Source: Halolamina litorea
GTDB taxonomy: Archaea > Halobacteriota > Halobacteria > Halobacteriales > Haloferacaceae
Direction of reading: 5' to 3'
Assembly (NCBI RefSeq): GCF_026616205.1
Contig: NZ_JANHGR010000001.1
Coordinates: 806,001-870,000 of the forward strand
DNA: 64,000 nucleotides
Shown: positions 53,076-56,614 of the stretch, piece by piece
Layout of the letters: each line of letters begins with the position of its first letter
Position numbering within the stretch: position 1 is the first letter of the stretch
Made by a program: the position numbers and the translations under genes
Notes under the pieces: generated by a model
Database searches by the model: none
The model's input: the letters and a program-made list of their open reading frames with translations, nothing else
What the model was told of the DNA's origin: nothing

Positions 53076-53891
53076 GTGACCCGTCTGCTAGAACACCTCA
53101 TGGCCGATGTCGACGGAACCGAGCGTCGAGCGGTCGCCGACCCGACCGACCTGAAGTACGTCGGGCCGGCGACGGCGACGGCGATCGAGGGGGCCGAGTT
53201 CTCCGGGCAGGCGGTCGCCGACAAGGAGGTCTCCTACCGGATGCTGCTCGAGGCCGGGATCAACCCCGGCGTCGCGGCGAAGATCCGCCGGCACCACTCG
53301 CTGGCGTGGTCGTTCAACAACGACGGGGATCTGGACCGGCGGTCCACGCAGGTCCGCGGCCTGCAGGACGAGGAGGCCGCGTGGGTGGCCTCGAGCGGGA
53401 TCGGCGAGACCGACGACCCCGACGAGAGCGCCGAAACCGCCGAACCCTCCCCAGCCTCTGCGGAAGACAGTTCCGACGACCGAACCGAGGACGAGGAGGC
53501 GGCGTGGATCGCCGACGCCACCGACCGTGAGGACCTCTCCATCGAGCGCATCTACGACGGCACGGCCGACGACGGCGCGGTCGACGAGGACGGGGAAGCG
53601 GCGTGGGTCGCCGACGCGACGGCCGAGGCCGACGACGCCCCCTCGGCGACTGCCGACGGGAGCGGCGACCCGCTGGCCGCCGAGGCCGCGTGGCGCGAGC
53701 GATCCAAGCCCACCCCGCTGACCGAACTCTCGGGGATCGGCGCGGAAGCCGCCGACCAGCTCGCCGAAGCCGGCGTCACGTCGGTTCGGTCGCTCGCGAC
53801 CGCCAGCCCGGAACTCCTCTCGGACGTGACCGGAATCGACGAGCAGCGACTCCGCCGCTGGCACCGCGAGGCCAGCGAGATGGCCGACTGA
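53076..53891 (+). CDS. Acidic protein with four AAW repeats and a C-terminal helix-hairpin-helix (DUF7409-like)
   Basis: This 271-residue protein has an N-terminal domain (residues about 20-80) with LKYVGPATATAIEGAEF and VAAKIRRHHSLAWSF. An acidic disordered region with four spaced copies of an EEAAWVA-like motif follows (near residues 98, 139, 172 and 201). The protein ends in a helix-hairpin-helix with LTELSGIGAEAADQLAEAGVTSVRSLATAS (partly shown). HhH domains bind DNA without sequence preference. I recall a haloarchaeal DUF7409 with a similar N-terminal domain. The GTG at 53076 is used, and the ATG at 53100 is a good alternative. Confidence 0.7.
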   Translation: MTRLLEHLMADVDGTERRAVADPTDLKYVGPATATAIEGAEFSGQAVADKEVSYRMLLEAGINPGVAAKIRRHHSLAWSFNNDGDLDRRSTQVRGLQDEEAAWVASSGIGETDDPDESAETAEPSPASAEDSSDDRTEDEEAAWIADATDREDLSIERIYDGTADDGAVDEDGEAAWVADATAEADDAPSATADGSGDPLAAEAAWRERSKPTPLTELSGIGAEAADQLAEAGVTSVRSLATASPELLSDVTGIDEQRLRRWHREASEMAD

Positions 53892-53915: not shown

Positions 53916-53922
53916 CTTTATA
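53916..53922 (+). promoter_or_regulatory. TATA element of the small ORF/CHAT-like unit
   Basis: CTTTATA lies about 26-30 bases before the ATG at 53949. Transcription would begin within a few bases of the small ORF's start, making that ORF, not the large gene, the first to be read. Confidence 0.55.
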
Positions 53923-53948
53923 CTCGCAGAATCAGCATCGATAGATAG

Positions 53949-54008
53949 ATGCACAACGCCGAGGACGCGGTCCGGGGGCTCGGCAGCACGGGAGTGACCC
54001 GCCAATGA
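53949..54008 (+). CDS. 19-codon leaderless small ORF overlapping the CHAT-like gene
   Basis: The frame encodes MHNAEDAVRGLGSTGVTRQ and stops in TGA that overlaps the next ATG (ATGA, 54005-54008). It starts about 26-30 bases after a TATA box, so it should be at the very 5' end of the transcript. It has no hydrophobic segment. It may be a regulatory leader peptide or a real small protein, with ribosomes reinitiating on the large gene through the overlap. Translation is not proven. The short length means it could also be chance, but position and overlap argue for function. Confidence 0.5.
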   Translation: MHNAEDAVRGLGSTGVTRQ

Positions 54009-56095
54009 GGATCAGTATCGCGACCCGGGGAACGGAACTCCACGTCACGGACAGCATCGAGCAACGCCAGTGTGTCCTGCGAATGCCCGACGCCGCGAGC
54101 GCGGAGTCGGTCGATACCAACCGCTTCTACTTCCCCGTCGACGCCGCAGCCCGGATCAGTACCCAGAGCGTGACCCTCGCGAGCTACGTCGCCACGATCG
54201 TGCGCAACGGCGAGGGGAGCGTCGTCGGCCAGTTAGACCGCGTCGACGAACTCTCACTGCCCGCCGGCGAGTACCTCGTCGAACTCGAACAGCCCGTGAA
54301 GCTCTACGTCCGCGTCGAGGGCTCGCTCACCGTCGAGACCAACGGGATGGCGACGACCATCGGCACGGACGGCGACCTGTTCGTCGCCGCCCGGTCGCGG
54401 CACAACCACCCGGCGGGAACCATCACGACGACCGAGAAGCCCGAGGAGATGATGCGGGCGCTGTCGGCGCTCTCCTCGTCGTTGAAGACCACGTCCGTCG
54501 AGCGGTCCTACCCGACGCTCCGTGGCCACCCGCCGGAGATCGAGCTCGGTGAGGAACTCTCGATCCCGGACGGGATGAGCGCCGCCGACGCCGGCGTCCA
54601 CGTCGAGATCCCCCCGCAACTGCGCTTTCTCTACCCCGTCGCCCCGCTCGCGTTTTACCTCGGTGCCGAAATCGTGCCGGGGTCGGTCCCGAAGGTCGTC
54701 GGCGAAGCGGGGTTCAGCTATCGACTGGACGGGCCGGGCGGGTTCGAGCGTACCGTCGCGGAGACGCTGGAACAGACGCTCCTGTTCGACTGTGTCGCCC
54801 GGACCGAGGGGTTCTACGGGATCGAGTTGGCCGAGCGGGAGACCGTCGACGCCCGTGTCGACCTCGACTGGGCGGACCTGTACGATCGGTCGCTCTCGGA
54901 ACGTCTCGACGCGTACCTCTCGGTCCCCTACGAACAGGTCGCCGACTGTATCCCGGAGTGGAAGACGGCGGGCTACATCGCCCCGAACCCCGAGAACGTC
55001 GAACTGCTCCCGTACCTGCTCGACGACCTGGCCACCATCCGCACGCCGACGGGCGAGCCGACCACCGCACAGCAGGTCCAGACTGACTCCCTGTTCGACT
55101 TCGCCCGTGCCGGCGGTCGAGTCGACGCACGAACGCTGCAGGCGCCGACCCGCGCTGCGGGAACGAGCGACGCCCGTGCACAGGCCCCAGAGGGACCGCT
55201 TCCGGACCTCGTCGACCCCGAACCGACCGAGGCCTTCGAGACCGTCTGGGCCGACGACGGCGTCCCCGTCGGCGCCACGAAGGCGTCGATCGACGGCTAC
55301 CGGAACGGGCTCGAACACACCCCTTCCGAGGAGATCGGCGTCACCGTCGTCGTCAACGACGAGGGGATGACCGAGGAGGGCGACGTGGCCGCGGACGTGT
55401 ACGGCGACGACGCCGAGTTCCCGTTCGACCTCCGCGTGTACCGGAACCTCACGACAGACCGGCTGAAGGCCGTCATCGAGACCGAACGGGAGTTCCTCCA
55501 CTACGTCGGCCACGTCGAACCCGACGGCTTCGAGTGTTCGGACGGCAGGCTTGACGTTCGCGACGTCGACTTCGTCGGCGCCGACGCGTTCTTCCTCAAC
55601 GGCTGTGCGTCCTACGACCAGGGGATGGCGATGCTCGAACGCGGTGCCGTCGGCGGCATCGTCACCGTCACCGAGGTCGTCAACAGCGGGGCGACGCGGG
55701 TCGGGAAGGCGATGGTCAAGCTACTCAACCACGGCTTCCCCCTCAACGCGGCACTTTCTGTCGCCAGCGAACAGTCCTTCGTCGGCGGACAGTACTCCGT
55801 GGTCGGTGACGGTGACCTCGACATCGTACAGGGACAGGGGATCGGGGCGATGCTGACGGTGATCGAAGAATCGACTTCGGCGTACGACGTATCGGTGTAC
55901 GCCTACCCCGACAATGACCTCAGTGTCGGGTCGATGGCGTCGCTCTCTATCGGCGATGACTCCCGACAACATCTGGTCCCGGGGCTGATCGGGGAAGTCA
56001 GCTACTCGAACCGCGAAGAACTGCTACAGGCTGTCGACGGTGACCTCACGAAGTACGACGGCCAGATCCACTGGTCCAACTCACCGCCGCTGTAA
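54005..56095 (+). CDS. Large protein with a C-terminal CHAT/caspase-like His-Cys domain
   Basis: This 696-residue acidic protein has an N-terminal part of about 400 residues that I do not recognise, with alternating strands (ARISTQSVTLASYVATIVRNGEGSVVG). A disordered linker spans about residues 360-420. From about residue 430 the C-terminal domain looks CHAT/caspase-like: FLHYVGHVEPDGFE (His 503) and DAFFLNGCASYDQGMAML (Cys 534), with a hydrophobic strand before each. This His-Cys arrangement suggests a cysteine protease. A hydrophobic, Gly-rich segment follows (GAVGGIVTVTEVVNSGATRVGKAMVKLL). No membrane segment is obvious. It is the main unexplained gene in the window. Confidence 0.7.
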   Translation: MRISIATRGTELHVTDSIEQRQCVLRMPDAASAESVDTNRFYFPVDAAARISTQSVTLASYVATIVRNGEGSVVGQLDRVDELSLPAGEYLVELEQPVKLYVRVEGSLTVETNGMATTIGTDGDLFVAARSRHNHPAGTITTTEKPEEMMRALSALSSSLKTTSVERSYPTLRGHPPEIELGEELSIPDGMSAADAGVHVEIPPQLRFLYPVAPLAFYLGAEIVPGSVPKVVGEAGFSYRLDGPGGFERTVAETLEQTLLFDCVARTEGFYGIELAERETVDARVDLDWADLYDRSLSERLDAYLSVPYEQVADCIPEWKTAGYIAPNPENVELLPYLLDDLATIRTPTGEPTTAQQVQTDSLFDFARAGGRVDARTLQAPTRAAGTSDARAQAPEGPLPDLVDPEPTEAFETVWADDGVPVGATKASIDGYRNGLEHTPSEEIGVTVVVNDEGMTEEGDVAADVYGDDAEFPFDLRVYRNLTTDRLKAVIETEREFLHYVGHVEPDGFECSDGRLDVRDVDFVGADAFFLNGCASYDQGMAMLERGAVGGIVTVTEVVNSGATRVGKAMVKLLNHGFPLNAALSVASEQSFVGGQYSVVGDGDLDIVQGQGIGAMLTVIEESTSAYDVSVYAYPDNDLSVGSMASLSIGDDSRQHLVPGLIGEVSYSNREELLQAVDGDLTKYDGQIHWSNSPPL

Positions 56096-56118
56096 CTGAC
56101 AGGACCTCGTTCGACGGT

Positions 56119-56247
56119 TCAGGGGCCCGAGATCGCGTGGCCCGAGTCGGCGACGACGCTCCCGGCCTGGGAGAGGAACAGCATCATCGTGAACAGTACG
56201 CCCATCATCTTCGGGTTGTCGGCGAGGAACGACTTGAGTTCGCTCAT
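56119..56247 (-). CDS. 42-residue hydrophobic peptide (DUF7503-like)
   Basis: Reading leftward from the ATG at 56247, the frame encodes 42 residues. They start MSELKSFLADNPKMMG, continue with a membrane-like stretch VLFTMMLFLSQAGSVVA, and end SGHAISGP before a TGA. It resembles a family of very small haloarchaeal proteins that I recall as DUF7503, sometimes beside CHAT-like genes. It converges with the large gene, 23 bases from stop to stop. A TATA element 27 bases upstream of its ATG gives it its own leaderless transcript. Confidence 0.75.
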   Translation of the reverse strand: MSELKSFLADNPKMMGVLFTMMLFLSQAGSVVADSGHAISGP

Positions 56248-56270
56248 TACATTACACACAATCGGGTCGC

Positions 56271-56278
56271 TATACTTA
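56271..56278 (-). promoter_or_regulatory. TATA element of the 42-residue peptide gene
   Basis: On the minus strand this reads TAAGTATA, centred about 27 bases before the ATG at 56247, with a purine-rich stretch (AAGGG) just before it as in BRE elements. The match is the clearest promoter in this region and suggests strong expression. Confidence 0.6.
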
Positions 56279-56404: not shown

Positions 56405-56614
56405 CTACCCCAGGTAGCCGAGGTCCTCGAGCTGCTCGGCGATCTCGTCGAACTCCGCTTCGGTGAGTTCGCCGCGCTGTTGGTGCTTGATGACGATGCT
56501 GCGCAGCAGGAACCGAACGAGGTCGCTGGTGCTCGAGAAGCTGGTCCCCTCGATCGTCTCGTCGACTCGGTCGGCGAGTTCGGTCGGGATCGAGACGGTC
56601 GTGTAGTCGGTCAT
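56405..56614 (-). CDS. Ribbon-helix-helix (CopG-like) DNA-binding protein
   Basis: This 69-residue protein has an N-terminal ribbon strand (DYTTVSIPTELADRVDETIEG) and two helices (SSTSDLVRFLLRSIVIKHQQ), the RHH pattern. The C-terminal helix is acidic (LTEAEFDEIAEQLEDLGYLG). RHH proteins act as dimers, often as antitoxins or repressors. Its stop lies 157 bases upstream of the 42-residue peptide's start, on the same strand, so it could be transcribed into that gene. I chose the ATG at 56614 as the family start. Confidence 0.82.
   Translation of the reverse strand: MTDYTTVSIPTELADRVDETIEGTSFSSTSDLVRFLLRSIVIKHQQRGELTEAEFDEIAEQLEDLGYLG

Follow-up and report, generated by a model that had tools for sequence, protein, structure and literature searches.

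What might a predicted cysteine protease and a small hydrophobic peptide do together in a haloarchaeal genome that encodes them in convergent orientation, with only 23 nt between their stop codons? The pair lies in the window, by which we mean the whole 64,000-nucleotide stretch of Halolamina litorea DNA analysed here. A sequence-only reading of this stretch had described a 696-residue CHAT/caspase-like protease, an overlapping 19-codon ORF and a facing 42-residue peptide with a promoter of its own, and each of these elements was recovered at the locus, as listed below.

Layout of the locus and the predicted protease fold

53917–53922 (+): TATA-like element TTTATA of the protease and leader-ORF promoter, from sequence, about 30 nt 5' of the leader ATG
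53949–54008 (+): 19-codon leader ORF, MHNAEDAVRGLGSTGVTRQ, its TGA stop and the protease start sharing ATGA
54005–56095 (+): predicted CHAT-fold cysteine protease, 696 aa, from the ORF, homologue conservation and predicted fold
54005–54406 (+): N-terminal all-beta domain, residues 1–134, from weak beta-supersandwich similarity
54956–55834 (+): clan CD protease region, residues 318–610, from structural alignment
55511–55513 (+): CAC codon of His503, candidate catalytic His, after strand 497–501 and invariant in homologues
55604–55606 (+): TGT codon of Cys534, candidate catalytic Cys, after strand 528–532 and invariant in homologues
56119–56247 (−): partner peptide DUF7503 (PF24335), 42 aa, from the ORF, Pfam match and pairing
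56122–56151 (−): tail ADSGHAISGP, partner residues 33–42, the conserved module of the partner family
56270–56275 (−): TATA-like element GTATAG of the partner promoter, from sequence
56405–56614 (−): ribbon-helix-helix protein, possible regulator, matching PF01402 just above cut-off, 5' of the partner gene

The leader ORF was confirmed in the window and found at 4/4 loci checked in the window's own genus, where its amino-acid sequence varies, but a short ORF with its stop at the protease start occurred at only 28 of 78 loci checked, with an RTGA overlap in nearly all. With its sequence not kept and the ORF itself missing from most loci, we rejected it as a third component of the system and consider translational coupling with the protease its likely role. 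The ribbon-helix-helix gene, previously put forward as a possible regulator, kept its position at 22 of 79 named loci, above the adjacent glycosyltransferase (13 of 79), which hints weakly at a regulatory function, but it is missing from most loci. A TATA-type, AT-rich block ~25–40 nt 5' of the ATG was seen in most partner relatives, and Haloferax and Halobellus loci (e.g. L095 and L078) additionally conserve an element around TTAATTAAGTTAATTTCATATCAGA 5' of the partner start, possibly a regulator site. On the other side of the locus, 5' of the protease, the window encodes a DUF7409 + HHH_5 protein with internal EAAW.A repeats (53100–53891, + strand), a gene that adjoins the protease only in the window's own genus.

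The window protease matched no model in Pfam (at E up to 1) or NCBIfam, and the family profile found nothing significant among PDB sequences, while 19 of the 53 aligned family members matched Pfam CHAT (PF12770) with a best E of 7e-5. An AlphaFold2 model built from 53 sequences (mean pLDDT 86.5, pTM 0.87) aligned best with the gingipain RgpB (Z 19.1, 249 residues, 3.4 Å, the alignment running beyond the protease domain to residue 657), followed by separase (Z 18.6), SAVED-CHAT (Z 17.2, 167 residues, 2.6 Å), Csx29 (about Z 14) and caspase-7 (Z 11), and Foldseek agreed with the clan CD assignment. The model thus carries the clan CD alpha/beta fold at Z 17–19 over 167–249 aligned residues, and it places His503 after one core strand and Cys534 after the next. 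Both residues were invariant in 80/80 named-genome relatives, together with H499, G502, C511, N532 and Q539, and again in a second set of 60/60 relatives, in which S536 was also invariant. Fold search and conservation therefore bear out the candidate catalytic pair that had been read from the sequence alone, and the protein is predicted to be a cysteine protease of clan CD with a CHAT fold. Its N-terminal domain gave a weak match only (best Z 8.8, 119 residues aligned, 3.2 Å); searches with the whole protein and with residues 1–319 returned protease and beta-sandwich matches, with no TPR among the matches listed. No export signal is visible in the protease. Neither protease nor peptide matched a PADLOC model at E up to 1, and no relative was found among INPHARED phages, a collection that thus holds no hint of a viral origin. 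In public plasmid annotation the relatives are mostly hypothetical, apart from single entries named 'caspase family protein' and 'CHAT domain-containing protein'.

Convergent pairing and the state of the active site

DUF7503 matches the window peptide over its full length (E 2.7e-21; 75.3 bits against a cut-off of 27; positions 1–42 of 42). Of 243 genomes in the order, 220 matched the protease family and 206 matched DUF7503, the model H. volcanii being among the latter in a control search. The idea that protease and peptide form a system implied that their neighbourhood recurs in other genomes, and it did so strongly. Loci reached via the protease held a convergent peptide in 29/29 cases and those reached via DUF7503 a convergent protease in 30/30; in genomes with 6–13 DUF7503 copies, the protease family was found at 29/29 further loci, pairs taken from the coordinate table were convergent in 67/67, and a DUF7503 peptide was directly convergent at 72 of 79 named-genome loci. 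These counts come from related genomes, with gene starts set by script, and they identify the convergent pair as near-obligate across haloarchaea. At most named loci no more than a few tens of nt separate the two stop codons, and touching or overlapping stops are common; transcripts that overlap at their 3' ends would follow, and the two genes may control each other by antisense. One genome (G180, contig C1) carries DUF7503 peptides of identical score at 777423, 1801088, 1929186 and 2738757 and a near-copy at 2249148, which suggests that the pair there was spread by a repeated or mobile element.

Presence of the partner followed the state of the active site. Every family member in 14 genomes was scored as active if His503 and Cys534 were both present. 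Active loci had a partner in 29 of 35 cases by an automatic rule and in 33 of 35 on inspection, the four additions being one peptide that ends GI, one 1 kb away and two TM peptides with an internal GP, whereas none of the 17 loci that had lost His503 or Cys534 had one. The Fisher p of about 8e-12 (5e-9 under the strict rule) is an upper bound on significance, because the loci are related by descent and the value overstates their independence. His503 was lost in 17/17 inactive paralogues and Cys534 in nearly all; a 670-aa paralogue in the window genome keeps Cys534 and has lost His503. The two paralogues of the window genome were considered as further systems and rejected, since both lack a partner and His503 and one also lacks Cys534. 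Another genome carries three inactive paralogues in tandem (L251, G087:C1:873836-884449), in which Glu replaces His503 and Cys534 is missing.

Residues kept in active and lost in inactive members (N451, M455, E458, H503, F529, N532, C534, S536, G540, G551, T554, G567, Y597, W690 and C263) map mainly to the predicted active-site region, and much of the N-terminal region is retained in the inactive forms. In a second active subfamily, which has Glu as residue 539, the partner is often a TM peptide that shows no sequence relationship to DUF7503 and nevertheless follows its plan of HPR/K, helix, tail and GP. At five loci of this subfamily (L149, L150, L151, L154 and L155) a conserved gene with the product MSQNLLADG..LLR..LS.... 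lies downstream on the same strand as the protease and may encode a regulator; at most of these loci no tail-bearing partner was seen. Outside the order, homologues were found in only four genomes of one family of the same phylum (L280–L283), of which three clearly keep both catalytic residues. No convincing tail-bearing partner was found in these four genomes, where one unrelated 170-aa ORF ends GP; they may represent the ancestral state.

The C-terminal tail across partner formats

If the partner acts with the active site, which part of it is under constraint? The constant part is the C-terminal tail, not the membrane segment. Its consensus of about 11 residues is approximately A-[A/D]-G-N-x3-[I/V/T]-[S/A/Y]-G-P, and 76 of the 79 partner ORFs at named loci end GP, the remaining three ending GI, GI and GT. 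At these loci 0.9% of stop triplets have an in-frame GP before them, which places the GP ending of partners far beyond chance. Gly and Pro are each written with all four of their codons, which rules out a cause at the DNA level, such as a terminator or a shared motif, and locates the constraint in the protein. The seven named loci without a DUF7503 match (7/79) all show a convergent frame ending GP-stop, five with overlapping stops; one of them (L124) is partly N-masked so that only the tail is seen, and the other six ORFs are intact. In one many-copy clade the tails end TIR, TIS or TVG instead of GP. The tail-bearing partner family is therefore wider than DUF7503 and takes in tandem forms without a TM segment and other TM peptides in the same slot.

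DUF7503 forms carry a hydrophobic stretch of 17–20 residues, probably a membrane anchor, and in anchored partners the charge placement ([N/H]P[R/K] ahead of the helix) suggests an N-in/C-out topology. This segment is absent from Halococcus partners, and in Haloplanus (12 genomes, the genus of G199, assigned via named loci L112 and L145) its replacement can be followed within a single genus. Three of the 12 Haloplanus genomes encode a membrane segment with one tail; the other nine lack the segment and encode 2, 4, at least 5 (masked), 6, 7, 7, 10, 13 and 14 tandem tails, built of units such as ADGNSGGISGP-YT. Both formats occupy the same gene slot with stops that always overlap, and both have related N-termini (MSE.DSGTV in several of each). 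Well-supported branches of the genus tree force at least two switches of format. Among the tandem units (62 scored, from eight genes), pairwise codon differences comprised 963 synonymous against 19 replacement differences, all 19 stemming from the first unit of two genes; 13 units at L145 encode one and the same protein sequence, with variation at 10 of 11 codon positions. The anchored single tail and the tandem soluble tails thus look like interchangeable formats, and this natural exchange of an anchor for further tails shows with unusual clarity which part of a 42-residue peptide is the functional one.

The peptide had earlier been suggested as a substrate or membrane effector, with bacterial gasdermins, which are activated by proteases, as a parallel. 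In a gasdermin-like scheme the protease would cleave the peptide and the freed helix would damage the membrane, and the 17–20 residue stretch of DUF7503 would suit such a role, but we regard this as very improbable, because the helix is dispensable, being missing from many same-slot partners that keep the tail, and because 42 aa fall far short of a gasdermin pore domain of about 250 aa.

Tail sequence is not equally stable everywhere. Tail replacements are very frequent within the window's genus (the window peptide, L067, L069, L070, L009 and L010), the rest of the peptide being nearly constant; there, tail dN over whole-gene dS has a median of 2.1 and the tail's own dN/dS is 0.61, against a dN/dS of 0.18 for the conserved tail of Haloferax. 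We do not claim positive selection on the tail, given that its own dS is also high in the window's genus and that the Haloferax tail is conserved. A search of five genomes for the tandem tail in other proteins matched the partner locus alone, and so found no substrates in trans.

Possible roles of the tail

We propose a two-gene unit of a CHAT-fold protease and a small tail-bearing partner, in which the tail is engaged by the active site, most likely as a substrate, and we put the probability of this reading at slightly under one half. A partner gone exactly where the active site decays, and a tail common to all formats, make engagement of the tail by the active site the simplest inference and our best reading of these sequences, with the tail most likely a substrate and possibly an inhibitor. 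The predicted cytosolic protease would recognise the tail in its active-site cleft and would most likely cut it, or cut between tails, and such cleavage may act in stress responses, regulation or cell fate; membrane anchoring and repetition would then be two ways to offer many tails. Repeated, separately constrained units read naturally as cut units, for which reason we weakly prefer a substrate over an inhibitor, by about two to one, although the contrast between active and inactive loci fits either. Several observations sit awkwardly with our proposal: an N-in/C-out topology would put anchored tails outside the cell, away from a protease without visible export signal; tails of the TIR/TIS/TVG clade and at the three loci with GI, GI and GT endings depart from GP; active homologues beyond haloarchaea show no evident partner; and the 670-aa paralogue of the window genome keeps Cys534 without His503.

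Like other CHAT proteases (PF12770), among them Csx29 of Craspase and SAVED-CHAT, the haloarchaeal protein has a predicted clan CD fold with a His–Cys dyad after two central strands, and Csx29 likewise acts with a dedicated neighbouring gene, Csx30 (PMC10028731). Unlike these proteins, it has a beta-rich N-terminus, with no CRISPR, cyclic-nucleotide or TPR module seen, and its partner is a tiny convergent tail-bearing peptide, outside PADLOC models.

Alternatively, the partner could be an inhibitor or antitoxin, a pseudosubstrate whose tail sits in the active site and holds back a dangerous protease, in the manner of securin with separase, with release once the partner has been degraded or titrated away; anchoring or repeats would raise the local inhibitor concentration. 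This is unlikely in our judgement, though it shares much of the evidence: the partner occurs with active enzymes and is missing with inactive ones, separase is among the best fold matches, unchanged tandem tails fit a multivalent inhibitor and the peptide has a separate promoter. As in separase–securin, a protease of this fold is matched with a small, probably disordered partner; unlike securin, to which no sequence homology was shown, the haloarchaeal partner has a repeatable tail of about 11 residues and is archaeal. Against it, two active loci show no partner and active homologues outside haloarchaea have no evident one. The genes are also convergent and not co-transcribed, unlike most toxin–antitoxin pairs, and in place of the co-directional operon of type II systems we found convergence in every coordinate-table pair and separate promoters. 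Gingipains (RgpB and Kgp) give the highest structural similarity, yet they are secreted bacterial enzymes, unlike this archaeal protein, and we know of no cognate tail peptide for them.

The interchange of anchoring and repetition is what one would expect of a multivalent ligand, and clustered tails might act as a scaffold or activator, recruiting several proteases that switch on by proximity and leave the tail uncut. We give this little credence, as most residues that disappear together with the partner fall in the predicted active site, not in a separate binding domain.

A comparably improbable reading treats the tail as a secreted, pheromone-like signal, with the hydrophobic part as a signal peptide and the tail released outside the cell, to be detected later by a receptor, either the cytosolic protease or a different protein. 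The precursor is indeed short and variable at its extreme C-terminus, with an AxA-like site ahead of the tail and rapid tail replacement in the window's genus (the median of 2.1 above), and tandem copies within one precursor are a feature of peptide-hormone precursors. Tandem-tail forms, however, lack a signal-like segment and keep A-[A/D]-G-N, the stretch that resembles a peptidase site, so these residues belong to the tail and the signal reading is weakened; conservation of the Haloferax tail, and a tail dN/dS of only 0.61 in the window's genus, also count against it. The pair does resemble RRNPP/Phr or Alo pairs (PMC7425212) in having a short ORF next door whose N-terminus is hydrophobic and whose C-terminus is functional, and in the many pairs possible per genome. 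In those systems the receptor is a TPR protein (PMC7425212), whereas the haloarchaeal pair has a protease, a convergent peptide gene and a dispensable membrane or signal part.

Extracts of Haloferax volcanii show very high, stress-linked caspase-type activity without a known gene (PMC3615174), and the protease family described here is a candidate for that activity in haloarchaea. Among the papers searched, none mentioned DUF7503, or CHAT domains together with haloarchaea. More speculatively, and somewhat unlikely when taken as a whole, the pair could be a type of proteolytic switch not previously described in archaea, in which a caspase-fold enzyme co-evolves with a dedicated short tail (pseudo)substrate shown on a membrane anchor or in arrays of 2–14 copies, the number and anchoring of tails set the dose, and haloarchaeal caspase-like activity has its source. 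Should the tail be a substrate or an inhibitor, the two genes would constitute a minimal, genetically tractable protease-switch pair. With a caspase-fold family in 220 of 243 genomes, accompanied by a dedicated partner family, the question of caspase activity in haloarchaea becomes open to simple deletions.
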